Shown here piece after piece: positions 3,483 through 35,861 of a stretch of DNA of 64,000 nt. Position 1 is the first letter of the stretch. Each line of letters opens with the position of its first letter. The notes under the pieces are model-generated. The model did not search any database. It was not told where the DNA came from and saw nothing but the letters and a program-made list of their open reading frames with translations. This DNA comes from an uncultured Clostridia bacterium (GTDB lineage: Bacteria; Bacillota; Clostridia; UBA1381; UBA9506), in contig CALYAO010000007.1 in the NCBI GenBank assembly GCA_944393605.1, forward strand, positions 1 through 64,000. The letters are read 5' to 3'. The position numbers and the translations under genes were made by a program.

Positions 3483-3651
3483 TCCTTTTCGCATACAAAT
3501 CCGATTTTCGAAAATAGTATATGCGGACGCGGCAAAAAAGGTGACAGCATCGGGTCGGACAGTCTTGCACCATCTCGTTCGGCAATGGAAAAGCCGCTCC
3601 GGTGGGGCCTGGGCGCTGCTTCCTTTAAAATACTGGTATGATTCTAAAAGA

Positions 3652-3686
3652 TTTGTATTGCTTCGCAGAGGGCACCCCGATACAAT
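3652..3686 (+). promoter_or_regulatory. Promoter of the 1271-residue lyase gene with shared upstream element
   Basis: TTGCTT (3658-3663) and TACAAT (3681-3686) are 17 bases apart and lie 31 bases before the start codon. The -35 box is overlapped by TTTGTATTGC (3652-3661). The same ten bases overlap the -35 box of the AraC regulator gene at 16808-16817, with near matches at two further promoters of this locus. It is a candidate activator-binding site. Confidence 0.6.
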
Positions 3687-3716
3687 GAAACCAAGTAGGG
3701 AAAGAGGAGGGGGAGC

Positions 3717-6700
3717 ATGCTTGTTTGGCACAATGACCATATGGAGATTGTCCTGGCGGACCAGGTGAGACACCCCTGTTTCTGGTGGCCTGCGACACGT
3801 CTGTGCTATGAGATTGCATTTGAGGATCATACGGTGGACTTGGCCAGTTTGGTACTACTGGATGAGCGGGGAGAGGCGGTGCCGTGCCAGTTTTCGGACT
3901 GGCAGCAGCGGGATGGACATCGGAGTGCAGTACTTTCGTTTGTGTCTGACCTTGCCTCGGGGGCAACCAAACGGTTTTATCTGACAAAAGGAACGCCGGC
4001 TGACCATGCCGGGATAAAACGGCATCAAGAGGGCAGATTTTTGGTGTTGGACAACGGCGTTCTGCAAATCAAGCTGCCGCTGGCGCTGGTGCCGGGACAG
4101 CCGGTGGAGGCGCCCGTACATCGCATCTGCTGGAATGGCACGTGGAAGGGCGCCCATCTGCTGGACGGGGTTGGAGAGGCGCAGCTGGCTGTGCGGGAGC
4201 TGGCGTTTGGTCCCGTCTTTTGCCAGTATGAATTGACGTACACCTTTGCACAAGGCGGCACCTACACCGCCTGTGTCACGTTCACGCAAGGGTATGATTT
4301 CGTGGAGCTGGAGGAACGGATGGAGGACATCCCCAAGGAACGGGGATGGGGTGTCCTGTACGACTGGCAAGGTCTGCGGCCCACCCACAAGTATTCCTCC
4401 ACCTGGCCGGACTCCACTTTTTGGTATCCCAAGGATGGGGTATATGGCGCATATGACTGGTATCCGGCCGACCGGGTACACACCATTTCCTACTATGGGG
4501 AAGACCCGGCCTTTGCGGGCCAAACGGCGGATGAACGGGGCAGACAGCAGATTGCGGAGCGGGTTGCGCCCTATGCGCCCTTTTTTGGATATTCCATCCG
4601 GCCCACGATGGCGTATTGGAACGCTGAAACCCGGGAATGTGCGGGGGTGTTTGTGAACGGCAATGACAAATGGGACGACCGGGAGTATGCCATTTGGGCA
4701 TCGGGGGATGCGCTGGCGGGGCGGTTTTTCTGTGAGGGGGAGGTGCTCCGGTGGCGCTTTCCGTTTGCCAGCGGGCGGCGGAGCATTGCATTGGCGTGCT
4801 ACATGCGGGACCGGGACGATATGTGGTTTGCCCGCCTCGCACAGGCCGAACAGGACATTGCGGCAATGGGCGTTCCGCCCGACATTGCGCGGAAGATGGC
4901 CTGTTTTCCGACAACCTATACCGCCTTTTTGCACAATCGGTATGTGACGTTAAACTTAAATAAAGTGAAAGATTGGACGCTTACCTATGACGGGCGGCTG
5001 CCTGAGATTCCTGTCACCAATTGTCACCTCAAGACGCCGCAGGAACTGGAGCAGATGGTGTATGGAACGGGCCGGGTGGTGCTTGCGACCAAGGGCGTGG
5101 AAGAATTTCACGAACGGCCTTACACCTTTGAGGCGGTGGAAATCCGGGGCGTTTTGGAAAAGATTTCGGACGCATACCTGCGCATGTCGGATGCGCTTTC
5201 CCCCGAAAGCCGGCGGCGGATTACGGCGCTGCTGCTGCTTTCTATGTATGTCTGTGCGGGGGAGGAGGCCATCCCGACACGGTATATGCTGGGCGGTCAC
5301 CCCAACTTTTTGGGAGACATTAAAGTGACAGCTGCCATGGGAGCGGTGCTGTTCCCTGACCATCCCGATGCGCGCTATTTTGCGGATGCGTTTGAACACT
5401 ATGTGGCCTTAAACGCACGCTATCACACGCGGCCCGCGGTGCCCAAATGGGGCGCGCTGGGCGGGCGGTGGACCGAGTCCATCGGGACATATACCTGGGG
5501 CTTTTTGGCAGCCACGACCCTGGCAGACGGTCTGTTGCGCCGGTTTTATGACGGCAAAGGCCGCATGGCGAACTGCCAGGTGGCGGATGTGGCAAACTGG
5601 ATTGTGTCCCTCTTATCCGCACCCGTTGAGACCAAGACCCGCCTGTGCCGCGTGCAGCCCACACAGGGCGCGCATTCAGGGATCCGGCCGCCTTTTCAGG
5701 TGCTGGCGGTGCTGGGCCAGGAACTGGCGCGGTTTGACCCGCTGCTTGCGGAGCACATCTATGCCGTGACGGATGCGCGGGATGACCATGTGCATGAGCA
5801 CAAGCCCTCTGAGAATGCTTGGAGCGTGCTGTTTGAGGACCTGTATCCCCCGGTTGCGGCAAAACCCGACTACCAGACCCAAAAATTTACGGGGTATGGC
5901 AGCATCCTGCGGTATGGCGTGGACACGCCGCAGGAGGTGTCGGTGCATCTGCAGCAGATTGACCGCGGCCCCAACTATCGCTGGGGCATGACAGCAGAAG
6001 GGGGATGCGGCAGCATCTTTTACTTCGCGGATGGACGTGCGTGGTCCTACAACGGCAAGGAAGATGCCGGCGACCGGCGATGTGAGGACGGTACATTTAC
6101 CACCAACTTTGGCGTGTGGAAGGAAGGGACCTACCGCTCCATCGGCATGGGAGATCTCGATCAGCCGCTCTATCGGCTGGGGGAGGTTGCCTACCAGGAG
6201 CTCCATGCGCGGCAGGTCCAGCCATACAGCTGGCCCGAATATCGGGCGCGCAAAGTGCTGCTGGTGGGAGGCGACTATATCGTTACCTATGATGCGGTAC
6301 AGGATGCGGGGGTCTATACCCGGTTTACCTGGTTTGTGGAAAAGGGCAAAGAGCTGCCCGCCATCCACTTTGTGAAGGGCATCACCATAGACCGGTTTGC
6401 GGTCCCTGGGTATGCCAAAAGCGAGCATATCACCGCACAGAGCCACGGCGTCTGGTATGAGGGCATGGGGGACTGTATGGCGGTGGTGAGCCACAAGCAG
6501 GACATCGCTGTAGAGCCGACCGACTATGGCTGCGTGGTGCGCGTCTCGGGCAGCGAAGACCATATCTTCCAGGGCGTCCGGGACATGGATGTGGCCCAGG
6601 ATGGCGTTCGGTTTGTGGGGCGGACGGGCTGCATCCGCAAAAAAGCGGATGGGACGCGGGTGCTGACGCTCCTAAACGGTACTTTGGTGGGGGATGATGC

Positions 6701-7532
6701 CCTTGCCTTTTCGGTCACCAGGCCCGATACGGGCGTATGCCTGACTTGCCGTGCAGATGGCGGCATCCGGGGCCGGGTACATACGGATGGCGGAGATATC
6801 CTCACCCTGCACGGAACGGTGCCGGGCCGGGTCTACATTGACGCAGAGGAAGTGGCCGTGCAAGACGGCGGGATTGCGCTGCCGCATGGGGAACATACGC
6901 TGGAGCTGACGGACGGGCTGCCTTGTCCAGCGCGGCCGCATATCACGGGTGTGCGAGGCAGGACAGTGCGATATACGCCTGCCACGGGTACCGAGCGGCA
7001 TGAGCTGGTGTACAGCACCGACGGCGAACATTTCATACCGGCAGCTTCCGAAACGGTAATGGCAGATATTTCGTGCAAGGCAGTGCTCAAGGTGCGGGGC
7101 GTGAACGGGGATCAGGAGGGGCCATGGTCGGCGGAATATCCCTATTTCCCCGAGACAGCGGCGCCGCTGCCGCCCTATGGACTCACCTATCGGCGGGGAG
7201 TGTTGACGTGGGGCGAGGTCTATGGCGCATCCTCTTATCGGCTATACCGAAAGATGGAAGGGGAACCAGACTGGGCGCTGCTGTATGACGGGGAAGCGCG
7301 CGAGGTACAGGACGAGGCAAGTGGTCGCTGCTGGTATGCGGTTGCGGCGGTCAATGGCAAGGGGGAAGGGGAAAAGTCCCCAGCGGTAGACAACGCCCCC
7401 GATAGCTTGCTCAACGAATACCCTAGCAGCTATTTTGAGCCGTTTTGCCGGCTGACGTCTTACCTCAAAGAGCCCTACTACCCAGATTGTAAGGCGAAGC
7501 CTCACTACCCGAACGAATCAGATGGATCGTAG
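3717..7532 (+). CDS. Large polysaccharide-lyase-like protein (heparinase II/III-like plan), no signal peptide
   Basis: The product has 1271 residues. Its layout resembles alpha/alpha-toroid plus beta-sandwich lyases: a beta-rich N-terminal part (to about 380), a helical part (about 390-740) with GGHPNF near 526 and GGRWTESIGTYTW near 582-594, then a beta-sandwich region with NYRWGMTAEGGCG near 751 and FADGRAWSYNG. A fibronectin-III-like stretch near 1150-1230 (YRRGVLTWGEVYGASSYRLYR) closes it. There is no signal peptide or lipobox, so it should act in the cytoplasm on imported oligosaccharides unless exported in another way. The start is supported by AGGAGG six bases upstream of the ATG. The next gene follows after 72 bases and is probably co-transcribed. 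I cannot name a CAZy family; the lyase role is inferred from fold and setting. Confidence 0.6.
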   Translation: MLVWHNDHMEIVLADQVRHPCFWWPATRLCYEIAFEDHTVDLASLVLLDERGEAVPCQFSDWQQRDGHRSAVLSFVSDLASGATKRFYLTKGTPADHAGIKRHQEGRFLVLDNGVLQIKLPLALVPGQPVEAPVHRICWNGTWKGAHLLDGVGEAQLAVRELAFGPVFCQYELTYTFAQGGTYTACVTFTQGYDFVELEERMEDIPKERGWGVLYDWQGLRPTHKYSSTWPDSTFWYPKDGVYGAYDWYPADRVHTISYYGEDPAFAGQTADERGRQQIAERVAPYAPFFGYSIRPTMAYWNAETRECAGVFVNGNDKWDDREYAIWASGDALAGRFFCEGEVLRWRFPFASGRRSIALACYMRDRDDMWFARLAQAEQDIAAMGVPPDIARKMACFPTTYTAFLHNRYVTLNLNKVKDWTLTYDGRLPEIPVTNCHLKTPQELEQMVYGTGRVVLATKGVEEFHERPYTFEAVEIRGVLEKISDAYLRMSDALSPESRRRITALLLLSMYVCAGEEAIPTRYMLGGHPNFLGDIKVTAAMGAVLFPDHPDARYFADAFEHYVALNARYHTRPAVPKWGALGGRWTESIGTYTWGFLAATTLADGLLRRFYDGKGRMANCQVADVANWIVSLLSAPVETKTRLCRVQPTQGAHSGIRPPFQVLAVLGQELARFDPLLAEHIYAVTDARDDHVHEHKPSENAWSVLFEDLYPPVAAKPDYQTQKFTGYGSILRYGVDTPQEVSVHLQQIDRGPNYRWGMTAEGGCGSIFYFADGRAWSYNGKEDAGDRRCEDGTFTTNFGVWKEGTYRSIGMGDLDQPLYRLGEVAYQELHARQVQPYSWPEYRARKVLLVGGDYIVTYDAVQDAGVYTRFTWFVEKGKELPAIHFVKGITIDRFAVPGYAKSEHITAQSHGVWYEGMGDCMAVVSHKQDIAVEPTDYGCVVRVSGSEDHIFQGVRDMDVAQDGVRFVGRTGCIRKKADGTRVLTLLNGTLVGDDALAFSVTRPDTGVCLTCRADGGIRGRVHTDGGDILTLHGTVPGRVYIDAEEVAVQDGGIALPHGEHTLELTDGLPCPARPHITGVRGRTVRYTPATGTERHELVYSTDGEHFIPAASETVMADISCKAVLKVRGVNGDQEGPWSAEYPYFPETAAPLPPYGLTYRRGVLTWGEVYGASSYRLYRKMEGEPDWALLYDGEAREVQDEASGRCWYAVAAVNGKGEGEKSPAVDNAPDSLLNEYPSSYFEPFCRLTSYLKEPYYPDCKAKPHYPNESDGS

Positions 7533-7604
7533 TGCTCCCGTAAACGGTATATACGGTAGGGCATTGCATATAAATAAGGTATTCTTATTAAAGGAGGAGA
7601 GGGT

Positions 7605-10600
7605 ATGAAAAGAAAGATTGTGTCTTTGTGGTTGGCGCTGACGCTGCTGCTGACCTGTGCGCTGGTTATGCCCATGGCATCGGCGGCAGGGGAGTATGAT
7701 ACGCCGCCCAACTACAAAGAGTGGCTTGTAGCCAATTATGACGGTTTGATCAAGGGCAAGGATGCCCATGAGATGGCGGGTATTGCTGCACGATACTACA
7801 AGGGCACGCAGGATGCGAAGTATCTGACGGATACGGAGACCAATTTCCGAGCATTCCTTGAGCAGGACGATGGAACGCTAAACACCATCGGCAACGACTT
7901 TTTCTCGGGTATCTACGTCATGGAGGCCTATGAGGTTTTGCTGGGTGCAAACAAGCTCCAGAGCGGAGATAAGGAACGGGTGCTGCAGTACCTGGATAGT
8001 TTCTTCCGTCCATCCCTCAACGACACGCACAACCAGATTATAGAGCGTGCTGTGGCAATGGCTTGGGCCATCCAATACATTCCAGACGCGCCGAAGTACA
8101 ATGAGTGGGTGGAATGGACGGATAAGATCTGGAACAAATGGTATGCAGATAAGGATTTGAACGAAGACGCCGGAGACTATAACGGACTGGCGCTGCGGGA
8201 CGTGATTCGCTGGGCGGAGATTGCGGGCCGCACGGAGCAGCTGTTGGACCCTGAGGTACAAAAGATGTTCGAGCGGTACCGGGATCAGGTTGGCCCGAAT
8301 GGCGCCATGCCTGAGTACGGCGATGACTTCTATGGCCGTTCCGCAGACTGGATCTATATGTTTGAGTACTGTGCAAATCTGTACTGCGACCCGACCTTTG
8401 CCTATGCGGCGCGCAAGATGTATGACTGGGCGCAGAAAAATGGCACTGGTGTTTCCAATTATTTCCTTTCGGCCGAGCTGTTTGACATCATAGACAATCT
8501 GTACACAGGTGAGACCAGCCTGTATGACCAGGGCGCGACGGTATCCAAGCGGTACCTGCCGGGGCACAACGAAGCCATCAACAAGGTGCTTATCCGCCCT
8601 GACAAGCAGGCGGGCAGCCCCTATATGGTGCTGGACAACGGCTTGACAGGCGTGAGCCACGCACATGTCAATGCACGGGGCAGCATCATCCACTATGAAT
8701 ACAACAATGTGCCGCTGTATCATTCGCTGACGCGGCGGTTTGTGGACGCTCGATATCAGAATGTGCCCTTCCTGATGGATGAAGAGACAAAGGGGTATTA
8801 TCCGTTTGACTCGGCGCCTGGCAACAAACAAAACCCGAGCCGCGGTCGCAGCAACGTCTGGTTTGAGGATACGCTGTCCTTACAGGACCTGCCGGCGGCT
8901 TATGACGATCCTGACCAGCGGGAGTTTGATACGCTGTGCTTCCGGCTGAGCAAGGAAAGCCATTCTCTCCTCTACTACTATGCGGACAACATTCGGCTGG
9001 AGGGCCCTGCGGGGACCAAGATGTTGTATGACTTTGAGAGCGGGTCCACCGAGCCCTTTGCGCGCAACGACAACCCGTTTGAAGTGGTGGACGGCGGATA
9101 TGAATCGAACAAGGCCCTAAAGATTACCGTGGACGATTCGGATGTTTTCTACAATGCATCCCAGAAGGTTACCTTTAATTTGAAGGAATATGACCGTATC
9201 ACATGGAACTGGAAGGTGGAGCTGCCCGACGGCGCCGCCACCAACAACCTCTGGAGCTGCTTCCGCCTGACGGACAACGACGTGGATGAGGCGCTGACGA
9301 CGGGGATTGCGGTTGCTTCTGGCTATGGGGATGTGTATATCCAGCTCATGCCCGAGGAGATTTTAAACAATCGGACGGAGATCACCAATGCGGTTGCGGA
9401 AAACAAGGGAAGAGACAGCTATTCTGAGATTGATATGGTGAAATTCCACACCGATAATACCACGTTAAACCGCCGCATTGTGCTGACGGAAGAAGGGTAT
9501 GCCGTGATCGCGGATACCATGACGGTTGGCGCAGAAGCGGACGGCTACACCGGCGGCCCGCTGTTTACACTGTACAACCAGAGTGAATCGGGCAGCAACT
9601 GGTTCCTCCAGAAGGGGGAGAAGAAGTGGTATACTGGTGCGGACGATGCAACCGGACAGACCAATGGCATGCTGGTAAAATATGGCGTGAAACAGGGCCG
9701 TGAGGCGGGTTCTGTCAACCCGACCGAGACCAAACATACCACCTTTGTAAAAGAGAAGTTGGCGGCGGGAACACCAACGACCTTTGTGACGGTGCTGGCG
9801 CCCAATTTGGATGATAAAAAGAGCGGACAGGAGCTGGCGGATTCCATCGTCATCCAGAAGGATTTGACCAAGGATTCCCAGGTGAGCTTCCAGACCGATT
9901 CGGGCTGGGTTACGGTGAACATCACGCCAGATGACTGGTCGGTGACGCGCGGCGCGGATGCGTTTGGCGGCGTCAAGGTGAAGCTCAATGACACGTATAT
10001 GTCCTTCGACCAACCCGCCGAGCAGATTGACGACCGCGTTCTGGTTCCCATGCGCACCATCTTTGAGGCGCTGGGTGCAGAAGTGGAATGGGATGCGGCG
10101 ACTGCGACGGCGATCGGCAAAAAAGACGGCAAAGAGGTGCGCGTCTCCATTGACAACACAACGGCATACATCAATGGGGAGCAGGTGACGCTGGATGTGC
10201 CCGCGCGGCTCATCAACAGCAAGACCTTGGTGCCGGTTCGATTCGTGAGCGAAGGCCTGGGGGCCGTGGTGGACTGGGATGAGGCAAGCAAGACCGTGCT
10301 GATCACGGCATCCGTTCCGACGCCGACCCCTGCACCGACCGCGACGCCGGGCCCGGTCGTGACTGGCAATCTCGTGAGCAACGGCGACATCGAAGCGGGC
10401 AGCGAGCAATGGAGTCAGCGTGGCGTAAAAGAAGACTGTACCATTGATTCGACGGTGGCAAAGAGCGGCAGCCAATCTTTGAAGATTGAGACCAGCACGG
10501 ATAGCTGGCGCGGATGGACACACAGCGATATCTCTGTTGTGGCCGGGCAGACCTATACCATCAGCGCATGGGTCAAGACGGAGAATGTGGAAGCGCTGAG

Positions 10601-11471
10601 CTCTGTGTACATTGTGTTTGGCATCAAGGATGCAAGTGGCAATACCATCGTTTCGGACAATGACACTGAGATCAGAAAGCTGCTGATGGATCCCCAGAAG
10701 GGGACGCACGACTGGACCAAGCTGGAGGCGGAGTATACCATTCCCGAAGGCGGCGCGATCCTGTATTACTTGACCCCGCGGGTGGACACCAAGAGCATGG
10801 TGAAGCAAACCGCGTGGTTTGATGACATCTCGGTGGAGGTCAAGGGTGCGGGCTCGTCCGCGACTGCGACGCCGGCGCCGAGTGCCAGTGCAACGCCGGC
10901 TCCCTCTGCGGCGCCTACCACGGCACCCAGCGGGACGCCCAGCGGTGACAACGTCTTTGCACAGGGGACCATCGCTTCGGTGGATGGCTGGACCAAACAG
11001 AAGGCCTCGCTGGCGACGGATGAGGACAAGGAACGCGAGATTCTCTTTGATGCCAACACGTCCCACGATGCGGGTACTGGTTCGCTGATGTTCAAGCCCT
11101 CCATCGGGTACTGGCGCGGCTGGCGCAGCCCTGATATCCCGGTGGAAGCGGGCGCAACCTATAAGATCAGCTACTGGGTGAAGGCGGAGAATTTCCCGGC
11201 CGGGACGAATTCTGTGATTCGCGTCAGCTTTGGCGTCAAAGATGCCGCCGGGAATTGGATCGTGCGGGACAACGACGATACCACGACCAACCTGCTCCGG
11301 TTCCGCAAGGAAGGCACCTTTGACTGGACGTTGGTGGAGTCGGAATTCACGGTGCCTGCGGGCGGCGCAGCCCTTTCCTACTTCACCCCGCGGGTGGACT
11401 TTAAGGAAGCACATCTTGCGCCGCCGGTGACGGTGTGGATGGATGATTTCTCCGTTGTGCGGATCAAATAG
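7605..11471 (+). CDS. Secreted lyase-like enzyme with copper-amine-oxidase-like domain and two carbohydrate-binding modules
   Basis: The 1288-residue protein has a clear Sec signal peptide (MKRKIVSLWLALTLLLT, cleavage likely after ASA near 27). A helical catalytic part (about 35-350) is followed by a beta-sandwich part (about 350-780). LRDVIRWAEIAG and VSHAHVNARGSIIHYEY recall heparinase II/III-type lyases. Residues about 790-903 form a copper amine oxidase N-terminal-like domain with the usual RVLVPMRTIFEALGAEVEWD and VPVRFVSEGLGA repeats. Two Pro/Thr/Ala linkers separate two related carbohydrate-binding-like modules (about 919-1081 and 1115-1288), each ending in a WFDD or WMDD strand. The enzyme is expected at the cell surface, releasing oligosaccharides for the importer. 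The ribosome site AAAGGAGGAGAG precedes the ATG, and a strong terminator follows. Catalytic specificity is not known. Confidence 0.65.
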   Translation: MKRKIVSLWLALTLLLTCALVMPMASAAGEYDTPPNYKEWLVANYDGLIKGKDAHEMAGIAARYYKGTQDAKYLTDTETNFRAFLEQDDGTLNTIGNDFFSGIYVMEAYEVLLGANKLQSGDKERVLQYLDSFFRPSLNDTHNQIIERAVAMAWAIQYIPDAPKYNEWVEWTDKIWNKWYADKDLNEDAGDYNGLALRDVIRWAEIAGRTEQLLDPEVQKMFERYRDQVGPNGAMPEYGDDFYGRSADWIYMFEYCANLYCDPTFAYAARKMYDWAQKNGTGVSNYFLSAELFDIIDNLYTGETSLYDQGATVSKRYLPGHNEAINKVLIRPDKQAGSPYMVLDNGLTGVSHAHVNARGSIIHYEYNNVPLYHSLTRRFVDARYQNVPFLMDEETKGYYPFDSAPGNKQNPSRGRSNVWFEDTLSLQDLPAAYDDPDQREFDTLCFRLSKESHSLLYYYADNIRLEGPAGTKMLYDFESGSTEPFARNDNPFEVVDGGYESNKALKITVDDSDVFYNASQKVTFNLKEYDRITWNWKVELPDGAATNNLWSCFRLTDNDVDEALTTGIAVASGYGDVYIQLMPEEILNNRTEITNAVAENKGRDSYSEIDMVKFHTDNTTLNRRIVLTEEGYAVIADTMTVGAEADGYTGGPLFTLYNQSESGSNWFLQKGEKKWYTGADDATGQTNGMLVKYGVKQGREAGSVNPTETKHTTFVKEKLAAGTPTTFVTVLAPNLDDKKSGQELADSIVIQKDLTKDSQVSFQTDSGWVTVNITPDDWSVTRGADAFGGVKVKLNDTYMSFDQPAEQIDDRVLVPMRTIFEALGAEVEWDAATATAIGKKDGKEVRVSIDNTTAYINGEQVTLDVPARLINSKTLVPVRFVSEGLGAVVDWDEASKTVLITASVPTPTPAPTATPGPVVTGNLVSNGDIEAGSEQWSQRGVKEDCTIDSTVAKSGSQSLKIETSTDSWRGWTHSDISVVAGQTYTISAWVKTENVEALSSVYIVFGIKDASGNTIVSDNDTEIRKLLMDPQKGTHDWTKLEAEYTIPEGGAILYYLTPRVDTKSMVKQTAWFDDISVEVKGAGSSATATPAPSASATPAPSAAPTTAPSGTPSGDNVFAQGTIASVDGWTKQKASLATDEDKEREILFDANTSHDAGTGSLMFKPSIGYWRGWRSPDIPVEAGATYKISYWVKAENFPAGTNSVIRVSFGVKDAAGNWIVRDNDDTTTNLLRFRKEGTFDWTLVESEFTVPAGGAALSYFTPRVDFKEAHLAPPVTVWMDDFSVVRIK

Positions 11472-11484
11472 CAAAATGAGTGAA

Positions 11485-11520
11485 AAAAGCCCCTGCTTCG
11501 GCAGGGGCTTTTGTTTTTTT
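11485..11520 (+). terminator. Terminator of the two-lyase operon
   Basis: A perfect 12-bp stem AAAAGCCCCTGC/GCAGGGGCTTTT with a TTCG loop is followed by GTTTTTTT, 13 bases after the stop codon. Confidence 0.92.
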
Positions 11521-11940
11521 GTGAACATTCGAACCTTTTGTGCTGCGGCGGCAGGGGCTGTTTTGCGGAGAGATAGCATCGGAAGCCCTCAGGACGCTGG
11601 TGTGTTGTCAAGGGCTGGGAATGCTTTTTTGATCCGCTTTTGGGATACGCCTTGCTTTTATCTTGTGGAAGATTTTGTTAAAAGACATACGCAGGGATGC
11701 GTTGTCTTATCCAGGCAGCATACGGTCCTTCCAGTGCCCTCCCTTCCGCATTGTTTGACTCTGCCCGTTTGTGAATGTTGTTTTACGGTTGTCGCCATTG
11801 CGATTCCTTTGGCGGCGGAGTTCGAAACGACGTTGGATACAATCATAGATGTGTGTGCCGGGCCTCGGTTTGGAACAATATCCAACCGACACAACACGTC
11901 CGTGCAGCGGGATCGCAAGCATTGACAATGTTTTATGACA
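11521..11940. other. Intergenic stretch between convergent genes
   Basis: About 420 bases lie between two terminators. Several short open frames exist on both strands, but none has a ribosome site, a start in a sensible place or a motif that I recognise. It may be decayed coding sequence. Confidence 0.5.
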
Positions 11941-11973
11941 ACAAAAAGGCGCTCCCCTTGCAGGGGAACGCCT
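11941..11973 (-). terminator. Terminator of the minus-strand esterase gene
   Basis: On the minus strand the arms AGGCG...CCCC and GGGG...CGCCT pair and are followed by TTTTTGTTGT, ten bases after the esterase stop codon. Confidence 0.82.
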
Positions 11974-11982
11974 CTTTCTCGT

Positions 11983-14900
11983 TTAACCAATCTTGGTCAG
12001 CGTAAGGTCGTCAAATGTCACGGACTGGATGCCGCCCACAGTGGATGGGTCGGCCAGCGTAATCCGCAGGGACAGGTCGGTGATGGCCACCGCGCCCTCT
12101 GGGATGGTGATTTGGCAGGTGTATTGCTGGTACGTGCCGCCGTTGGCATCCGCTCCCACCTTGATGTAATTCGTGCCGTCATCAGCCCTCACGGCTTCAT
12201 TCATCTTGGACTCCGTCCAGTCGGTCGTACCGTCTGGCAGCTTGCAGTATGCGCCCGTCTGATCCTGTACAGAGAACGTGACCGTACCGTAGCTGTCGGG
12301 CACAAGGCCATCTGCTTTGGCCCACACCGAAAGCTCATAGATGCCGGGTGCGACGCTGATCGCGCCATAGCCAAGGGCGCTCCAGCCGCGGGTGGACAGC
12401 CATACCCTGACGGCATTGTCTCCGGCGTGTGCATCCGCGGTTTGCACAGGGAATTCGGTTGCGGTTCCGCCCCGCTTTGCATAACCGGCAAAGAACAGGT
12501 TCTCTTTTTGATATTCCTCAAAACCGCCGTTGTAGATGAGGTTTCCGGTTCTATCCGTCACGAGATCCCGCGCAAACGCGATGGGGAGGGTATCGTTGCG
12601 GAAGGGGGCGACGGGGATGCCTTTGCTGTTGGCCAGATTGACGCGGGGCCATCCCTCAAACGCATACCGCACTGTGACAGGGGCGGAAACGTGGGTGCTG
12701 GACAGCGTAACCGTATCTGTGCCCGTGATGGATGCGTCGGCATTGTAAAACACGCCGTCTGCGCCCGCAATCAGGAAGCCGCCGATGGCCTCCTCTTCCC
12801 GTATCTTTTGGAGCCCGTCGTACACGTTGTCAAAGGTGACGGTGAGCGTGCTGCCCGACGGCGTAATGTCCCGCACGGTGGGGTAGTCGCAGGAAACGTC
12901 CTCCCTGCCATACACCTTGGCCAGGATGGTATCCGCCACGCGCCCTGAAACGATGTCTTTGTCATAGGGGTGGATGTCATATTGGTCGCCCGTGTCGATG
13001 TTGCAGGTCATGTATATGTGGTTTGACTCGTCTGCGGCCTGCATCTGCGCCTCCCGGAGCAGCGCGGTGATATCGGTGTAGTAGCCAGGCAGCTGGATGA
13101 CGATGAAGGGCAGTTCAGGCGAGTCCAGGAGGCTCCGCCAGTCGGCCACCATGCCGGTGAGATAGTCTTTGTAGCTGGCAAAGCCATTTACGTTGCTCTC
13201 CCCCTGGTACCATACGACGCCGCTGAATTTCGTGCCTGCGAGCGGCGCGATCATGCCGTTGTAGAGGTCGTTGGACTGGGCGGTGATACCCAGCTCGGCA
13301 CGTGCTTCATTGCTCATCCACCGCTCAATGGCAGTGCCGGGAACGTTGTCCGAAACCAGCCCAATGGGGACATCGGGAAACGCATCGGCAAGTGCTTTGC
13401 CCGTCAAGTAGCCCACAGCGGAGAAGTTTTCGGCATTCGTTTGGGTGCAGTCCACCCAACTGCCGCCCGGCAGCGTTTGCTGTGGCTTGGTAAAGTCCGA
13501 AGATGCGGCATTGATGTCGGGCACCGTAAAGAGCTTGATGTTGGCGGTGTCCTCTCCGGTGAAGTTGAACCGCTTGGTGGTGTAGTCCATGTTGGACTGC
13601 CCCGTAAAGAGCCAGACATCGCCCACCGAAACGTCCTCCAGCGTGAAGCTGTTTTGGGGTCCGGTTATGGATACGGTATGGCCGACTCCCGCTTCTCGTG
13701 CGGCAAAAACGGCTTCCCAACGGCCTGTATTGTCCGCGTAGACCGTCGTGGTATCGTTGTCAAAGGAAACCGTGACAGGCATCCGCGCGGGCGCATAGCC
13801 AAAGATGGGGATGGGCTGGCTGCGCTGTACCACCATGCCGCTTTGCAGCAGGCCCGACAGCGTAATCTCCCCTTCCTTGTAGTCCCGAAGGATGACGTGA
13901 TGGAAGGGCTGCATGCTGGTAAGGGAATCCCACAAGAATGCCTCTGCCCGATATCCCCGAATCGCGTCCGCCGACACATCTTCGGGGATGGTAACCTGGG
14001 CGGTCAGCGTGGTCTCGGGCATGTCGGGGGTGTTGACGGGGAAACCGCTGTCATCAATGGAGATGTCAAGCATCTGGCCCGCTTCGTCAAAGAGCGCCAG
14101 CACCAGGACGCCGCTCTCCGCGGTATCGCTCGAATTGACGGCGGTGGCTGTGGCGGTGAGCGTCTGGCCTTGGTTGTCGCTAAAGCGATCCAGGCTAAAC
14201 TGCGGCGCGCGTACCACCAAAGACTGCTGCGCTTCCGCAAGGGCCAGGTTGTCAAACCATGCGGTTCCGGTGCCGTCTTCCACCACCAGGTCAATTCCTG
14301 CTTGGGTTGCGCCTGCGGGCACAAAGAGAGAGGCGGATACGGTTTCCCAATCGGCGGTTCCGGTGCGCTGTGCGATGGTCTGGGAAGACACCTGCTCGCC
14401 GCTTGCGTCATAGTAAGTCACGCGGATGCGGGCGTATTGCTCTGCAGCGGCGATGGCTTCGGTTTTCATATCCCCTGAAAAGGAAAGCATCCGCCCTTCT
14501 TCTACGGCGAACCGCGGCGAGGACCAAACCTCGTCCACACCGTCTGCATACCCAACAATCTTGAGGGAACGGGTGCCGTCCCCGCTGACGGTAGTGGGGT
14601 CGGTGCGCCCCAGTTTTTCCAGCGAAAAGTCGTCACAGTAGAGCGCAGCGGTCTTGGCAGGAACGCCATCTGCCGCAGCAGTACTGAACCCGTTGGACCG
14701 AACCGCATTGACTCGGTTGATGCTGTATGCGTTGGCCGGAGTGGTGATGGTGGTTTCATACGCATACCAATCCGCCGCGCCGTCTGCAATGGATACCTTG
14801 TCGCCCGCCGTATTGGGGATGGTTTCGCCGGTGCCCTTGATGTATTCAATCTCTGAGTAAATGGGCTCACCGTCCAGGTTTTCTACCTTGACATAGGAGC

Positions 14901-16617
14901 GCATGATATATTCTGCACCGCCCGCAACGGCTATTTTTCCTTCGGGCCGGGCCTGTATAGAGCCCCAGGCCTTTGATGTGCCTTCTTTGAAGGGCACGGA
15001 TGCTGCCTGTTCACCGCTGCGGACATGGGCAGGATCCTCCGTTTTTTTCACGAAATTCAGCGTAGAAACACTGCCTCCGGCATACCAGTATACGTTCTTC
15101 ACATCGTGCTCAAAACTGCCGTCGGGGAGCAGATTGCGGCCGTCTGACGTCCAGCCGATGGGGAATCCTGCTTCATCTACCTGCTCAAAATCGCCGTTTG
15201 AGAGCAGGTCGGGCGGGGGCACCAGCTGCAGTGTCCGTACCATGTATCGGTCGGGATTGTCCACGGCCGTCGCCCGGATGGTGTATGTCCCAAGCTGGGC
15301 GTCGGGTGTGATGGTCAGCACTCCGGTTTCGGGCACAATGGATACCCCCGTGAGGTCGCTGCCCGTCACGCTCCATGTGACCTGTGCTGCGGGATCGATG
15401 TCTCCGGTGTCGCCGTATACCGTGGCGGTAAATGCGATGGTGGCAGGATCCTGCGGCACAGTCATGCTGGTAACATCCGGGTTGGCTGAAATGATGATCT
15501 TGGCCCCTTCGCTTTGGAAGGGCGCAACAGATACATCGTCAAACCACGCGGTATTGCGGCCGGTCACGCCCAACCGGCACCGGACGGACATGTCCGCTGG
15601 CGGGGTGTAGATGGCGGTGTATTGATACCAACCGTTGTCTTCCGATGGGCTGCCAAACGTCACCCCTTCCACTACGAGCCCCGTTGCAGCGTCCACCAGC
15701 TGACAGAAGGTCTCCGAAAGGTCACTGCCTGTGTCTGCCTTGGCATAATAGGTGAGGGTATAGGGGGTGCCGCCTGTGAGCTGCATGGCATTTCCGGTCC
15801 AGAAGTCCTGGTTGCCGTACCCCACGATTTTCAAGGACTGGTTGCCGGTGCGTCCGGTTGTAAGGTCGACGCGGCCCAGCTTTTCAATGGCCATTTCATC
15901 CGCATAAAACGCCAGATAGGGCTGCCCTTCGCTGCGCTCTGTCGGGTTGCCGCGAATCTGGAAATTGGAAAGCGTCGCGCCCGTTCCCAGCTTTTCGGGA
16001 ACCGTCACCGTCTGGCAGAGATGCTGATAGGCGGAACCGCTGAAGGAGTATCTGGTGTACAACGCGTCAGTCTGTCCCACCCTTCGGGTACCGCCGCTGT
16101 CCGTCATATTGGCACTCAGCAGGAGCTGGTCGCCCGCTTCGTAAGCGGTGGGCATGACCCAGCCGCGGAAGAGAAAGGTGTCTCCCGCATCAATGGGGAC
16201 AGAAAGCAGAACGTCCTCACCGCCGCCCCATTTGCGGCTGTACTGGAAGAAATTGGTATACAGGCTTTGGGTTCCTGTGATGGCATTTTCGGAGGCAAAC
16301 GAGATTTCTGCATCCCCGCGGTTGCCGGTATACCATGGCTGCTGGGAGGCGGATGTCTCAAAGCTTCCGTCTGACAGGAGATTCTGCCCGTCGCTTTCCC
16401 ACCCGGCGGGGAAGGCATAGCTCCGTATGATCTCATCCTGCGTGAGGGATGGGTCCATTTTGCCAGCCATCCGCGTCCCGTAGGATTCGTCCAGCTCTTC
16501 AAAGCTGCCGTTTTCCACCAGGTTTCCGGCCTCCTGCGCCCGCACCGGCAGCTCACACCAAGCCGACAGCAGGCAGGTGCAGAGGAGCGCCGCCAAATAC
16601 CGATTGGGTCGTTTCAT
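11983..16617 (-). CDS. Secreted sialate-O-acetylesterase-type (SGNH/SASA) enzyme with nested carbohydrate-binding modules
   Basis: The 1544-residue protein starts with a signal peptide (MKRPNRYLAALLCTCLLSAW, cleavage after VRA). Two large module pairs fill residues about 30-800, with an Ig-like domain between them. In each pair a module opening NGSFE or NGDFE is interrupted after a GW.SDG motif by a complete second module, then resumes at a GR.D...SLKIVGY motif. A ~95-residue module with FLWDSLTSMQPF follows. The catalytic part has GQSNM near 1008 (nucleophile Ser), WYQGESN near 1138 and DQYDIHP near 1213, the blocks of SGNH sialate-O-acetylesterases. A last carbohydrate-binding-like module ends the protein. 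It should deacetylate glycan at the cell surface. It diverges from the AraC sensor gene and has its own promoter and terminator. A paralogue lies at 32481. The acetyl substrate is inferred. Confidence 0.8.
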   Translation of the reverse strand: MKRPNRYLAALLCTCLLSAWCELPVRAQEAGNLVENGSFEELDESYGTRMAGKMDPSLTQDEIIRSYAFPAGWESDGQNLLSDGSFETSASQQPWYTGNRGDAEISFASENAITGTQSLYTNFFQYSRKWGGGEDVLLSVPIDAGDTFLFRGWVMPTAYEAGDQLLLSANMTDSGGTRRVGQTDALYTRYSFSGSAYQHLCQTVTVPEKLGTGATLSNFQIRGNPTERSEGQPYLAFYADEMAIEKLGRVDLTTGRTGNQSLKIVGYGNQDFWTGNAMQLTGGTPYTLTYYAKADTGSDLSETFCQLVDAATGLVVEGVTFGSPSEDNGWYQYTAIYTPPADMSVRCRLGVTGRNTAWFDDVSVAPFQSEGAKIIISANPDVTSMTVPQDPATIAFTATVYGDTGDIDPAAQVTWSVTGSDLTGVSIVPETGVLTITPDAQLGTYTIRATAVDNPDRYMVRTLQLVPPPDLLSNGDFEQVDEAGFPIGWTSDGRNLLPDGSFEHDVKNVYWYAGGSVSTLNFVKKTEDPAHVRSGEQAASVPFKEGTSKAWGSIQARPEGKIAVAGGAEYIMRSYVKVENLDGEPIYSEIEYIKGTGETIPNTAGDKVSIADGAADWYAYETTITTPANAYSINRVNAVRSNGFSTAAADGVPAKTAALYCDDFSLEKLGRTDPTTVSGDGTRSLKIVGYADGVDEVWSSPRFAVEEGRMLSFSGDMKTEAIAAAEQYARIRVTYYDASGEQVSSQTIAQRTGTADWETVSASLFVPAGATQAGIDLVVEDGTGTAWFDNLALAEAQQSLVVRAPQFSLDRFSDNQGQTLTATATAVNSSDTAESGVLVLALFDEAGQMLDISIDDSGFPVNTPDMPETTLTAQVTIPEDVSADAIRGYRAEAFLWDSLTSMQPFHHVILRDYKEGEITLSGLLQSGMVVQRSQPIPIFGYAPARMPVTVSFDNDTTTVYADNTGRWEAVFAAREAGVGHTVSITGPQNSFTLEDVSVGDVWLFTGQSNMDYTTKRFNFTGEDTANIKLFTVPDINAASSDFTKPQQTLPGGSWVDCTQTNAENFSAVGYLTGKALADAFPDVPIGLVSDNVPGTAIERWMSNEARAELGITAQSNDLYNGMIAPLAGTKFSGVVWYQGESNVNGFASYKDYLTGMVADWRSLLDSPELPFIVIQLPGYYTDITALLREAQMQAADESNHIYMTCNIDTGDQYDIHPYDKDIVSGRVADTILAKVYGREDVSCDYPTVRDITPSGSTLTVTFDNVYDGLQKIREEEAIGGFLIAGADGVFYNADASITGTDTVTLSSTHVSAPVTVRYAFEGWPRVNLANSKGIPVAPFRNDTLPIAFARDLVTDRTGNLIYNGGFEEYQKENLFFAGYAKRGGTATEFPVQTADAHAGDNAVRVWLSTRGWSALGYGAISVAPGIYELSVWAKADGLVPDSYGTVTFSVQDQTGAYCKLPDGTTDWTESKMNEAVRADDGTNYIKVGADANGGTYQQYTCQITIPEGAVAITDLSLRITLADPSTVGGIQSVTFDDLTLTKIG

Positions 16618-16675
16618 TTTTTTCTTCTCCCCTTCCTTTTTTTGGTTATCAAATGGGTATGGTTATCCTAGTTTC

Positions 16676-16710
16676 ATTATATAATGGATAAGGAGGATGA
16701 CAATACAAGG
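16676..16710 (-). promoter_or_regulatory. Promoter of the minus-strand esterase
   Basis: On the minus strand TTGTCA (16698-16703) and TATAAT (16676-16681) are 16 bases apart, about 60 bases before the ATG. The bases CTTGTATTGTCA run across the -35 box and resemble the element at the lyase, regulator and transporter promoters. Confidence 0.65.
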
Positions 16711-16787
16711 ATTTTAGTATCATGCAAAGATTTCGTGCAAGTGGAAGGGATGGAGCCTTGTCTGATCTTGCGCAATACCAATAATTT

Positions 16788-16842
16788 TTTTGTATAAACG
16801 AAGAAATTTTGTATTGCAGCCAAAGGGCATAAAAGGTACAAT
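16788..16842 (+). promoter_or_regulatory. Promoter and direct repeat upstream of the AraC sensor gene
   Basis: TTGCAG (16814-16819) and TACAAT (16837-16842) are 17 bases apart. TTTTGTAT occurs twice, at 16788-16795 and 16807-16814, 19 bases apart (about two helical turns), and the second copy overlaps the -35 box. Paired direct repeats at the -35 box are typical of AraC-type activator sites, so autoregulation is likely. Binding is inferred. Confidence 0.6.
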
Positions 16843-16950
16843 AGAAACTGTCCTATGATTCGAACTGTATAGGGATGCGCGCTGGCATTTGCCATGGCAT
16901 ATGTGTGGTGTATGCTGCAAGCGTAGAACAGATGGGAGAGATGTGCCGGA

Positions 16951-19260
16951 ATGAATATTTTCAAAAAATTCAATACCATTCTGTTCAAGCTGACAGCTTC
17001 CTATGTGCTGATCATCATCTTGAGCGTACTGCTGACAGGCGGATGCGCCAATCTTTATTTCAAATCCTATTTCAATGAACAGACGACATCCGCCAATCAG
17101 CGGATTTTGTATGATTTGGAGGAATTCATCAACAAAGACATTTTAGAAAAGATCGATGCTTTATATTTACGTCTCATTACCGAGACAGATACCAATCAGT
17201 TTTTTATCAATGCGTTTTCCGATCCCGAGCTAGATGATTACATGATCATCAACCAAATCAAAAATTACTTGCTTGAAAACCAGGTGTTGCAGTCCAATTG
17301 GCTCAACGGGATTTTTGCCTATTTTATCCAATCGGAGACGCTGGTGAGTACCAGCGGACTGTTGTATAAGCGGGGGAATCGGGAAAACTTGAAACCCGCT
17401 TGGCTGGAGGACATGCTCGCGGGCAAGCCGGGCTTTGCATACATACCAACGGCGCCGTTTGACAATGTGTATGAGTCCCGAAAGGAGAATGTCTGCCTGT
17501 TGGTCCGCAAATATCCATCCTATTATGCGGATGCGATCCCGAATGTGTTGCTGTTTTTTGAGGTCAAAGAATCCGTCTTCCGTGCGATTTTGCAGCAATC
17601 GGCGGACGCCCAGCGGGGTGAACGCATCTACCTTTTAGATGAATATGGAAATGTCATCAGCGGAAGTGAGGCATGGACTTATCCCAGCAACGTGGCGGAA
17701 GAGCCCGCCTTTGCAATGCTGCAGCAGCAGGAAACAGCCAACGGCAACTTTGACGCGGACATCGGCGGCAGCAAAAATGTGGTGTCTTATACGACGCTTT
17801 CGAATTACCACTGGAAGCTGGTGAGTGTGACACCGTGGGATTTGTATTATCAGGCATCTGGGCGGCTGCAGGTTACGGTCGTGATTATCTGTGTGCTGGC
17901 GATTTTGCTGGGGCTTTTGGTGTCCAATTTCTTTGCACATCGTATCTATAATCCGCTGAAAGGTATTGTAGAAAAAATCTCTCGCACGATGGGGAGAGAA
18001 GGCGGACAGGATGGGAATGAATATGCGACCATCAACCGTGCGATCAGCTCCATGGCAAGCCAGATCAGCGATCTGACACGCACCTTGGATTCCAACCGTC
18101 CGCTTATCAAACAGAATATGGTCAATTCCCTGCTGTTCAACAAGATTGGGGATACGGAGGAGCTGCAACAGTTCCTGCGCATCACGGGTGCGCGGCTGTC
18201 CGGGGAATGCTATGTGGCGGTCATTGTGCGGCTGGACCGTGACATGCTGCAAAATCTGACGGTGGAGAATGCCAGTTTTTTGGTGTACCACATGGTGGAA
18301 GAAATTGAACGGATGGACGGCGGCGCCACATACCTTGCGTCGGGCTTGGAGGATGACAAGCTGGCGGTGTTGTCGGGCAGGAAAACATGGGACCGGCATG
18401 CGCTGGCGCGGGACATTCAGTATATCATTGACTATCTGTTTTCCAATTTTTATATGACGGCGACCGCTTTTGTGGGGGAACCCTGCGACGCAGTACGGGA
18501 GCTGCACCGCTCCTATGCCAGTGCGCAGACGGCCCTCAAGTATCAGATGTTTTTGCCCAAAATGAGTCTGGTATTCGCGTCGGATATTTTGCCGCGGGAA
18601 CAGAGCAAAAAGAGATTGCCCTCTGCCATGCTAACGGGGTTTCAGACCATGCTGCATGCGGGCAAAACCGAAGATGCCGGATGGCGGCTGCATGACATCG
18701 TGCAAGAGCTGGTCACAGGGGAATACAGTGCGGCGTATTGCAACACCGCGCTGATGGAAGTGGTGTCTGTGGTGTCGGCCTATCTCAAGGAACTCAATAT
18801 CAAGTCGTCGGATATCTTGGATGAAGATCTGCTGGTTAGCTTCAATACCATGGAAAACATCTATGCGTTTGAAACCTGGATGGGACAAGTGATGGTCCGG
18901 GTGGCGGACTACCAAGCCAACCGGGAGGTCAACGCCAATACCCAGATTGTGGAAAAAGCAAAACAGTACATTGAGGACAATCTGGCGGGCGACCTGTCTC
19001 TCAGTAACCTGTCCGACCAGGTGTATATCAGTACCCAATACCTCTCTCGCTTGTTCAAGGAGGAAACGGGGATGAACCTGTCCGACTATGTGACCAACGC
19101 GAGAATGGAGAAGGCGCGGGAACTGCTGCTCAGCACCAATCTCAATGTAGAAAGCATTGCCGAGCGGGTGGGATACAATACGCCCCACTATTTTATTAAA
19201 AAATTCAAAGAAAAGTATGGCATGACCCCCAAAAACTATAAAATGCATCATGCCCCATAA
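16951..19260 (+). CDS. Membrane-spanning AraC-family sensor/regulator 1
   Basis: This 769-residue protein has transmembrane segments near 13-33 and 306-328 enclosing an extracellular sensing region of about 270 residues. A linker and central cytoplasmic region follow, and the C-terminal ~105 residues form an AraC-type double helix-turn-helix (DLSLSNLSDQVYISTQYLSRLF and SIAERVGYNTPHYFIKKFKEKYG). Such one-component regulators are common beside LplB/YtcP importers in Bacillota and are thought to sense extracellular carbohydrate. It diverges from the esterase and is followed at 80 bases by the GH105 gene, probably in one transcript. The ATG has only a weak GGGAGAG site. Good candidates for its targets are the promoters sharing the TTGTATTG element. 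The ligand is unknown. Confidence 0.9.
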   Translation: MNIFKKFNTILFKLTASYVLIIILSVLLTGGCANLYFKSYFNEQTTSANQRILYDLEEFINKDILEKIDALYLRLITETDTNQFFINAFSDPELDDYMIINQIKNYLLENQVLQSNWLNGIFAYFIQSETLVSTSGLLYKRGNRENLKPAWLEDMLAGKPGFAYIPTAPFDNVYESRKENVCLLVRKYPSYYADAIPNVLLFFEVKESVFRAILQQSADAQRGERIYLLDEYGNVISGSEAWTYPSNVAEEPAFAMLQQQETANGNFDADIGGSKNVVSYTTLSNYHWKLVSVTPWDLYYQASGRLQVTVVIICVLAILLGLLVSNFFAHRIYNPLKGIVEKISRTMGREGGQDGNEYATINRAISSMASQISDLTRTLDSNRPLIKQNMVNSLLFNKIGDTEELQQFLRITGARLSGECYVAVIVRLDRDMLQNLTVENASFLVYHMVEEIERMDGGATYLASGLEDDKLAVLSGRKTWDRHALARDIQYIIDYLFSNFYMTATAFVGEPCDAVRELHRSYASAQTALKYQMFLPKMSLVFASDILPREQSKKRLPSAMLTGFQTMLHAGKTEDAGWRLHDIVQELVTGEYSAAYCNTALMEVVSVVSAYLKELNIKSSDILDEDLLVSFNTMENIYAFETWMGQVMVRVADYQANREVNANTQIVEKAKQYIEDNLAGDLSLSNLSDQVYISTQYLSRLFKEETGMNLSDYVTNARMEKARELLLSTNLNVESIAERVGYNTPHYFIKKFKEKYGMTPKNYKMHHAP

Positions 19261-19340
19261 AACCAATCTTCACATCGAAGCATGGTATGTGGCGCTTATG
19301 TGCGATGTACGGGGCATCAGCCGGAAGGAGGAATATGGCA

Positions 19341-20366
19341 ATGAACAATCAAAAGGACGTCAAACGCTTGGTCGACCGGGTGATCTACGCCAAAGATCCC
19401 AAAGGAGCAGACATGAACATAGAACGGGTGGAATGGCCCGAGGGCGTGGGGTTGTATGGTTTGCTGCGGGCATACCAGACCTATGGCTTTTCGGACTGCG
19501 GCGCGTTTTTAGATGGCTGGATTGAACGGCATAAGCGAGAGATTTACGATGAAAGAACCATCAATGGTACTGCGCCGGTGATGACTATATTGGAAAAACT
19601 TGGGAAACATATCTCGCCAGAGGACCTTGGGATCTGTACCGACCGTGCGGAGTTTCTGCTGCGGGATGCGGCCCGGCTGCCCAACGGTGCGCTGGAGCAC
19701 ACGGTGCATGACACGGTGTTCAAAAACCAAATGTGGGCGGATACGCTGGTGATGGCTTGCATGCTGCTGGCCAAGCTGGGTGTACATACGGGAGATAGGC
19801 GGTATACCGCAGAGGCGCAAAAGCAGCTGGTGCTGCATCATAAGTATCTCAAAGACCCCGACACAGGCCTGTTTTTCCACGGGTATTCGGAGGACACGGG
19901 AGATCATCTGTCCGCCGTACGGTGGGGCCGTGCCAATGCGTGGATTACGTTGAGCACGGTGGAGATGCTGGAACTTCTGCCCCCCGATTTTGCGGGCCGC
20001 CAGGAGGTCTTGGAATCCCTGCAAGGACAGGTGGCAGCGCTTGCATCCTGTCAGCGCGCAGACGGGATGTTCGGCACCGTGTTGGACTGGGAGGGCTCAT
20101 ACAACGAAGCCTCCGCAACGGCGGGGATTGCGTATGGCATCTGCCGTGGCATCAAGGATGGCTATATCGGCAGACAGTATGCCGGGGTTGCACAGCGGGC
20201 ACAAGAGGCGGTACGAAGCCGCATCAATGCCGCGGGTGAGCTGGAGGATGTGTCGTGGGGCACGCCCATCCTGCCCTCGAAAGAGGAGTATAATGCCGTT
20301 GCGATACGCCCCATGCTATATGGGCAGGCGCTGGCCATTTTGATGCTGTGTGAGATGGAGGGCTGA
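19341..20366 (+). CDS. GH105 unsaturated (rhamno)galacturonyl hydrolase
   Basis: The 341-residue protein matches the length and plan of the YteR family, an alpha/alpha barrel. KNQMWADTLVMACMLLAKLG (near 128-147) carries the expected catalytic Asp (D134), and RWGRANAW (near 194-201) lines the substrate pocket in the family. These enzymes remove the 4,5-unsaturated uronic acid that lyases leave at the non-reducing end. No signal peptide is present, so it works on imported oligosaccharides. ATG 19341 is preferred to ATG 19335 because AAGGAGG ends at 19331 (nine bases against three). A terminator follows at once. GH105 members act on pectin, ulvan or arabinogalactan fragments; which applies here is open. 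Confidence 0.87.
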   Translation: MNNQKDVKRLVDRVIYAKDPKGADMNIERVEWPEGVGLYGLLRAYQTYGFSDCGAFLDGWIERHKREIYDERTINGTAPVMTILEKLGKHISPEDLGICTDRAEFLLRDAARLPNGALEHTVHDTVFKNQMWADTLVMACMLLAKLGVHTGDRRYTAEAQKQLVLHHKYLKDPDTGLFFHGYSEDTGDHLSAVRWGRANAWITLSTVEMLELLPPDFAGRQEVLESLQGQVAALASCQRADGMFGTVLDWEGSYNEASATAGIAYGICRGIKDGYIGRQYAGVAQRAQEAVRSRINAAGELEDVSWGTPILPSKEEYNAVAIRPMLYGQALAILMLCEMEG

Positions 20367-20370
20367 GCTC

Positions 20371-20410
20371 AGGGGAACAGGCGGAACAAAACGCGTCTGT
20401 TCCCCTTTTA
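20371..20410 (+). terminator. Terminator after the GH105 gene
   Basis: AGGGGAACAG pairs with CTGTTCCCCT around a 16-base loop that has a small hairpin of its own, and TTTTA follows. It begins four bases after the stop codon. Confidence 0.8.
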
Positions 20411-20517
20411 TACGCGTTGGGCGCAGCAAAGCCAATTGCGGCACAGATTGGGCGTAAAACATCAGACTTTTGTGTGCGTTTGACAAACAGGTGCGCCCGA
20501 AGGCCTTTTTAAAAACT

Positions 20518-20537
20518 GGGCCTGAAAGACTCGAACC
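20518..20537 (-). pseudogene. tRNA 3'-end fragment (T-arm and acceptor strand)
   Basis: On the minus strand GGTTCGAGTC followed by TTTCAGGCCC resembles the T-arm and 3' acceptor strand of the tRNA-Met at 3292-3368 (about 16 of 20 positions). No anticodon arm or 5' acceptor strand can be found beside it. It may be a scar of integration next to a tRNA or a chance match. Confidence 0.3.
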
Positions 20538-20617
20538 GCTGTGCCCCGCAGCTGGCAAGTCCCGGCGCGGCCCGTGCTGGGGCGCATTGGATAAGATTGT
20601 TGTATGATCCTAATTTA

Positions 20618-20652
20618 TTGGTATTGCATTCACGGCGCGCTTACCATACACT
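20618..20652 (+). promoter_or_regulatory. Promoter of importer operon 1
   Basis: TTGCAT (20624-20629) and TACACT (20647-20652) are 17 bases apart, 30 bases before the first permease. TTGGTATTGC (20618-20627) spans the -35 box and differs in one base from the TTTGTATTGC element at the lyase and regulator promoters. Confidence 0.55.
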
Positions 20653-21632: not shown

Positions 21633-21647
21633 AGGAGGGAGTGCAAT

Positions 21648-22526: not shown

Positions 22527-22571
22527 AAAAATAGCAAGGGAAATCAATTCATTCATTTGGGAGGGAAAGCA

Positions 22572-35855: not shown

Positions 35856-35861
35856 TCTGCC

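Follow-up and report, generated by a model that had tools for sequence, protein, structure and literature searches.

A candidate tandem-repeat operator for a membrane-bound AraC-type regulator at four promoters of a polysaccharide cluster in an uncultured Clostridia bacterium

At the Pm promoter of Pseudomonas putida, the regulator XylS is described as binding two direct repeats, in each of which one monomer reads a box A and a box B with its two recognition helices, and this operator overlaps the site of RNA polymerase (PMC5481539). In Caldicellulosiruptor bescii, local AraC-type regulators such as PecR, PecR2 and HemR stand beside ATP-binding cassette (ABC) importers and lyases, have tandem-repeat sites and are taken as activators (PMC8579813). 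Here, we describe a comparable arrangement in a 64,000-nucleotide stretch of DNA (hereafter the window), which makes up the first 64,000 of the 65,112 bases of contig C7 (CALYAO010000007.1) in the 2.5 Mb genome assembly GCA_944393605.1 of an uncultured Clostridia bacterium. A sequence-only reading of the window had proposed that a short TTGTATTG-like element, lying across the -35 box of four promoters, marks a regulon under a neighboring AraC-type regulator, hereafter Reg1. We find that each of these elements forms the downstream part of a tandem repeat of 35 bp that recurs in other genomes, and we consider it highly probable that the four are Reg1 binding sites, from which Reg1 would activate the cluster through two tandem half-sites abutting RNA polymerase.

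All four short elements are present where the sequence-only reading had placed them, give or take one base: TTTGTATTGC at 3652-3661 (+) and 16808-16817 (+), TTGGTATTGC at 20618-20627 (+) and CTTGTATTGT on the minus strand at 16700-16709, the last corrected from 16699-16710. That reading had not included a second, similar element 19 bases 5' of each, which gives GTATGAT-N12-GTATTGC at 3636 and 20602, GTATAAA-N12-GTATTGC at 16792, and GCATGAT-N12-GTATTGT at 16700 (-). Together with 10 sites from other genomes, these four yield the consensus TAAnATTnTTnTATnATnnTAAAnTnnTTGTATTG (14 sites, period 19 bp). When the base profile of the 14 sites is compared with itself, a sharp peak appears at lag 19 (0.176, the next being 0.054), and the operator is therefore a tandem repeat of TAA...TTGTAT units, in each of which the TAA and TTGTAT boxes are about 10 bases apart; neither the upstream TAA box nor the lag-19 peak had been used in picking the sites. 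On the DNA side, this repeat is compatible with the two-box layout of AraC-type operators; the half-sites of AraC and XylS usually lie 21 bp apart.

With regard to the promoters, the last TTG of the operator doubles as the start of the -35 box, and a -10 box with 0-2 mismatches follows at 16-18 bp in 14 of 14 sites, the placement of a class II activator site that adjoins or overlaps the -35 box. In the window these spacings are 17, 17, 17, and 16 bp, as had been claimed, and the -35 boxes differ from TTGACA at three positions in the lyase-like, Reg1, and importer 1 promoters and at one in the esterase promoter. Over the 14 sites, whose -10 contexts had already been seen when they were listed, the -10 boxes total 15 mismatches, as against 47 at random local offsets, and none of 20,000 draws was as low. 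The sites found by the operator alone (two in genome G045, one each in G037 and G076) carry 0, 1, 2, and 0 mismatches, or 3 in four boxes. When the promoters of the window and its relatives are aligned, the operator and the -10 box are the only two conserved blocks.

The short element, a piece of 8-10 bp, is not diagnostic by itself. TTGTATTG occurs four times in the window for 1.95 expected, a number reached in 12 of 100 shuffles, and with a TAYAAT box 19-21 bp downstream it occurs five times in the whole genome, three of them in the window. The other two copies belong to unrelated, housekeeping-like promoters with a TTGAC-type -35 and without the upstream half; we take them to precede a tRNA-Leu gene and a lipoate-protein-ligase-like gene. 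On this basis, the short element alone was ruled out as evidence: the occurrence at unrelated promoters that would speak against a regulon was seen in part for it (two promoters), and not for the full operator. A third exact TTTGTATTGC at 46375-46384 (+), 5' of the gene at 46700, has no upstream half and no visible -10, and looks like chance.

The full operator, by contrast with the short piece, singles out the four promoters. In a leave-one-out analysis, in which a 29-bp matrix built from three sites was run over the approximately 128,000 positions of the window, the held-out site ranked first among untrained positions in four of four cases. A matrix of all four sites scores them at 32.2 to 37.4, by construction, and its best scores on 20 first-order Markov versions of the window range from 5.7 to 17.9. 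A matrix made from the 10 sites of other genomes, a partly circular comparison, ranks the window sites 1-4 of 127,932 positions, at 26.9 or more versus 18.3 for the fifth. Searched genome-wide with one mismatch allowed, the bipartite pattern has 13 matches, namely the four window sites and nine inside long open frames, and the same pattern read backward has nine; when the spacing of the two halves is set one base off, no clear excess is seen in the window (14 matches versus a mean of 9.43, as many being reached in 6 of 100 shuffles). A sequence-only model of eight sites, four from the window and four from orthologues (R1, likewise partly circular), has three matches below an E value of 0.001 in the own genome, all in the window, and the Reg1 site appears only at E 6.5. 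With a model trained solely on the four orthologue sites (R3), the lyase site heads the list for the own genome, followed by the esterase site, and a model of the four window sites (R2) brings up first, in G045 and in G037, the sites adjoining the Reg1 orthologues.

The claim that the element marks a regulon of the neighboring regulator is well supported by comparison with other genomes, where the operator is seen again both next to orthologues of Reg1 and in front of orthologous target genes. Few genomes encode a full-length relative of Reg1, with three beyond the own genome among 101 genomes (33-42% identical over the full length, in G045, G037, and G076); a class-level search of 391 genomes returned G037 and three more at 27-29%, and a named collection returned Paenibacillus helianthi (29%) and P. 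illinoisensis (26%) in addition to the same three close relatives. The operator pattern alone finds a site beside three of the three close orthologues: two without mismatch in G045, one without mismatch in G037, and one with two mismatches in G076. Three further sites are found in G076, a pair of them between divergently oriented genes and the third ahead of a gene for an 809-residue protein, and one site each in G280, P. helianthi, and P. illinoisensis (weak). Blastp identifies the genes behind these sites as orthologues or relatives of the window targets: lyase-like proteins (40% in G045, 46% in G076, the latter followed by a 50% orthologue of the second gene of the lyase-like operon), GH105-type hydrolases (50% and 53% in G045 and G037), an importer permease (71% in G076, 64% in G280), and an esterase-type protein (36% in G076); in the two Paenibacillus species, the gene behind the site has only an SLH region in common with the window. 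Importer 1 orthologues are 57-77% identical in G045, G037, G076, and G280. The operator is conserved with the regulator across these four genomes, and in the window it precedes functionally linked genes, as one regulon would have it. In G076 (L193, 7342-7430), the lyase and esterase orthologues have divergent promoters, each with one operator, back to back.

When the flanks of 85 regulator loci were scored (a scan that passed over L093 and L056-L058, the latter being the same records as G045, G037, and G076), the top scores fell at Reg1 and its near orthologues, and none of 255 open reading frame (ORF) chunks reached 8. A tree of helix-turn-helix (HTH) domains (84 rows, one protein under 200 residues having been dropped) places Reg1 in a clade of 10 members with support 100/99, which includes every regulator known at that stage to have a site. 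An operator-like sequence, TTTTTAAGATGACAGAATTTTTGTATTTTC, also stands at L084 10865 (+) and L109 10868 (+), after Paenibacillus YesN-like regulators whose HTH falls outside the Reg1 clade. When 398 genomes of the phylum were searched subsequently, five new Reg1 orthologues (26-29%) came to light and served as a held-out set, in which the best match of the 14-site, 35-bp matrix per 5.3-kb locus beat 97, 98, 100, 97, and 100 of 100 shuffles, hence in five of five; two of these sites (G791 and G830) closely resemble the P. illinoisensis training site and are not fully independent. Four of the five lie just 5' of the regulator on the opposite strand; the fifth, in G810, is on the regulator's own strand and past its 3' end. 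Overall, 12 of 15 members of the Reg1 clade have a site. Not counted are G173, which had been labeled as sited in the HTH tree and whose best adjacent matches fall within the shuffle range, and the match of G169 (L140:2157), which 1 of 100 shuffles reaches and which is 14 kb from the regulator.

Reg1 itself is predicted to be a membrane one-component regulator, with an extracytoplasmic dCache sensor between two membrane helices, the latter read by eye from its sequence and structure model. Its C-terminal part of about 100 residues scores 80.0 bits with HTH_18, for a cut-off of 33.6, in keeping with the double HTH of the AraC/XylS family. The structure model has a predicted local distance difference test (pLDDT) value of 77, with an overall predicted template-modeling score of only 0.41, and for its N-terminal part Foldseek gives matches to the dCache ligand-binding domains found in chemoreceptors and kinases (E about 1e-7, TMt up to 0.70). 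Reg1 and its G045, G037, and G076 orthologues have an almost identical second recognition helix (YNT[PT]HYF[IT]KKFKE).

Taken together, these features favor a scenario in which Reg1 would sit in the membrane with its dCache sensor outside the cell and its AraC-type double HTH inside. The two half-sites point the same way, and in each the TAA and TTGTAT boxes are spaced by roughly one turn of the helix, as would suit two Reg1 protomers that each reach into consecutive major grooves with their pair of recognition helices. The downstream half-site merges with a -35 box that is mostly poor, and there Reg1, once bound, would be in contact with RNA polymerase (class II activation). Ligand on the sensor would turn the promoters on, the ligand presumably being a breakdown product of a uronic-acid polysaccharide. 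The candidate targets (table 1) would be the lyase-like operon (3717-11471), the esterase gene (11983-16617), Reg1 with the GH105 gene (16951-20366), and the importer operon (20682-32350), and Reg1 would probably also switch on itself.

Table 1. Features of the candidate Reg1 circuit in the window (aa, amino acids; bp, base pairs)
Feature	Position	Strand	Description
Operator 1	3626..3661	+	5' of lyase-like gene 3717; TAAAATACTGGTATGATTCTAAAAGATTTGTATTGC; also before orthologues in G045 and G076
Promoter of lyase-like gene	3658..3686	+	-35 TTGCTT, 17 bp, -10 TACAAT (3681-3686)
Lyase-like gene	3717..7532	+	1271 aa; 'lyase' label unproven
Second gene of lyase-like operon	7605..11471	+	1288 aa; Cu-amine-oxidase N-type domain, CBM_4_9
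Esterase gene	11983..16617	-	1544 aa; SASA carbohydrate esterase, CBM_4_9
Operator 2	16700..16735	-	5' of esterase gene; -35 TTGTCA, 16 bp, -10 TATAAT (16681-16676)
Fifth, weaker operator-like site	16772..16807	-	Inverted, between esterase and Reg1 promoters; score 18.3, window rank 5
Operator 3	16782..16817	+	5' of Reg1; TAATTTTTTTGTATAAACGAAGAAATTTTGTATTGC; -35 TTGCAG, 17 bp, -10 TACAAT (16837-16842)
Reg1	16951..19260	+	769 aa; extracytoplasmic dCache-like sensor flanked by two predicted membrane helices; GGDEF_2-like domain; AraC double HTH at the C terminus
GH88/GH105-type unsaturated glycuronyl hydrolase	19287..20366	+	26 bp behind Reg1
Operator 4	20592..20627	+	5' of importer 1; TAAGATTGTTGTATGATCCTAATTTATTGGTATTGC; -35 TTGCAT, 17 bp, -10 TACACT (20647-20652)
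Importer 1	20682..24203	+	Two ABC permeases and a solute-binding protein: 20682-21632, 21648-22526, 22557-24203
Two SLH-domain surface proteins	24304..32350	+	Probably in importer operon

As regards the extent of this circuit, a hairpin terminator follows the second gene of the lyase-like operon (11485-11512), and the GH105 gene is probably co-transcribed with Reg1. A strong terminator-like hairpin lies at 32422-32449, and a scan of the window with the 35-bp matrix finds no operator before the genes that follow it, so the circuit probably reaches about 32.35 kb and no further. Beyond the hairpin, the region 32481-42744, which likewise has no Reg1 operator, encodes a SASA esterase, a chondroitinase-AC-like PL8 protein (at 35894), an FAD oxidoreductase, and a GHL6 protein, and a PrmC-like methyltransferase with a PrmC N-terminal domain is encoded at the edge of the polysaccharide cluster (42692-43636, +). 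Another AraC-type regulator built like Reg1 (Reg2, 43906-46197, -) and a second importer (51543-54996, +) both lack the operator and probably form a separate circuit. The GH105-type hydrolase, a heparinase II/III-like domain in the G037 operon, and the chondroitinase-AC-like PL8 protein downstream, which has no operator, point to a uronic-acid polysaccharide as the substrate. The lyase identity of the 1271-residue protein is unproven because it has no match in Pfam, NCBIfam, or PDB; its structure model, made with two sequences, is of low confidence (pLDDT 30.5), and, being well conserved in two other genomes (40-46%), it may represent an undescribed enzyme family. The fifth, inverted site, which scores 16.2 in an earlier matrix scan and behind which inspection by eye reveals no -10, is about 72 bp from the esterase operator and has a TGTATA box in common with the Reg1 operator on the opposite strand; it could serve looping or repression.

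That the promoters resemble one another only as strong promoters do, through a -35 TTG and AT-rich, UP-element-like upstream DNA and with no common regulator, would fit the lack of significance of TTGTATTG alone in the window and its presence, with a good -10, at two unrelated promoters of the genome. Yet both of these promoters have a consensus-like TTGAC -35 and no upstream half, when three of the four window promoters have a poor -35, and promoter context would not account for the constant 19-bp spacing of the repeat, for the way the sites rank across the genome, or for the sites at the orthologues; we regard this explanation as hardly credible. The genome encodes many AraC-type proteins (39 first-look candidates, of which 10 were scored), any of which could in principle own the operator, with Reg1 a mere neighbor. 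We judge this very improbable, as the site tracks the Reg1 clade across several families and classes and adjoins the regulator itself, whereas Reg2 and importer 2, in the same window, are without it. Finally, Reg1 might bind and repress, blocking RNA polymerase at the -35 until ligand releases it: a site overlapping the -35 suits a repressor too, and the extra inverted site could act on the esterase and Reg1 promoters. Such repression seems unlikely to us, given that -35 boxes with three mismatches at three of the four window sites suit an activator-dependent promoter, and that the Caldicellulosiruptor regulators with tandem sites 5' of promoter elements are taken as activators (PMC8579813).

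Several observations nonetheless weigh against Reg1 as the activator of all four units. The 10 non-window sites come from loci that adjoin Reg1 orthologues and were chosen because they look like those of the window, which makes their selection partly circular; only the two of G045 and those of G037 and G076 had first been seen by the operator alone. R2 misses the importer site of G076 at E values up to 2, and scores as high as those of the sites occur by chance elsewhere (G034 C107:17844 and G022 C12:7529, both rejected as lying inside ORFs). Two Paenibacillus response-regulator loci (L084 and L109) score 14.0 beside other AraC proteins, and no convincing site was found near the regulator in 3 of 15 clade members (G173, G169, and G072). 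The R3 list, up to E 10, contains neither the importer site nor the Reg1 site of the window, although the latter ranks third with the 35-bp matrix. Of the proposal that four units form one autoregulated circuit, autoregulation is the weakest arm.

Activation by Reg1 from a tandem operator would define a regulon that is new, although its kind is already known: among the titles and abstract openings listed by literature searches, we found no paper describing this operator or the Reg1 clade. A motif noticed by eye has become a defined operator with a named candidate regulator, a target list, and a held-out test, and a lyase-like protein, an esterase, a hydrolase, an importer, and surface proteins become assignable to one response in a bacterium known from a draft assembly. 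Searches with this operator can help to reveal which genes related sensors control in other Bacillota, and the value of the finding lies in a clean cis-trans pair for membrane one-component regulators, a class that has been little studied. A broader idea, to which we give somewhat less than even credence, is that, from Clostridia to Paenibacillaceae, the dCache-AraC activators of this clade, tethered in the membrane, control differing sets of genes through a single rigid operator (two tandem TAA/TTGTAT half-sites held at a 19-bp register relative to the -35). If this were true, the operator would be a code for reading regulons, and hence the polysaccharide sensed, from genomes, and it would serve for a large class of one-component glycan sensors that has received little study and whose members must bind DNA from a fixed position in the membrane.

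With regard to known systems, the DNA-binding domains of AraT (6swi) and YesN (3lsg) superpose on the C-terminal domain of the Reg1 model with a root-mean-square deviation of 1.0-1.2 Å and 43-44% identity; these two are two-component response regulators, whereas Reg1 carries its own sensor, and a domain search found no receiver domain in it. For XylS at Pm, the likeness to the Reg1 operator lies in two direct repeats of two boxes each that overlap the polymerase site, and the difference in that XylS answers benzoates through TGCA and GGTA boxes, when Reg1 would combine a 19-bp period and TAA/TTGTAT boxes with an extracytoplasmic dCache-like sensor. The C. bescii regulons resemble the Reg1 cluster in arrangement, namely in gene neighborhood and in tandem sites 5' of promoter elements. 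With these precedents, the simplest account is that Reg1 would act as an activator on two tandem half-sites, with the proximal one against the -35.

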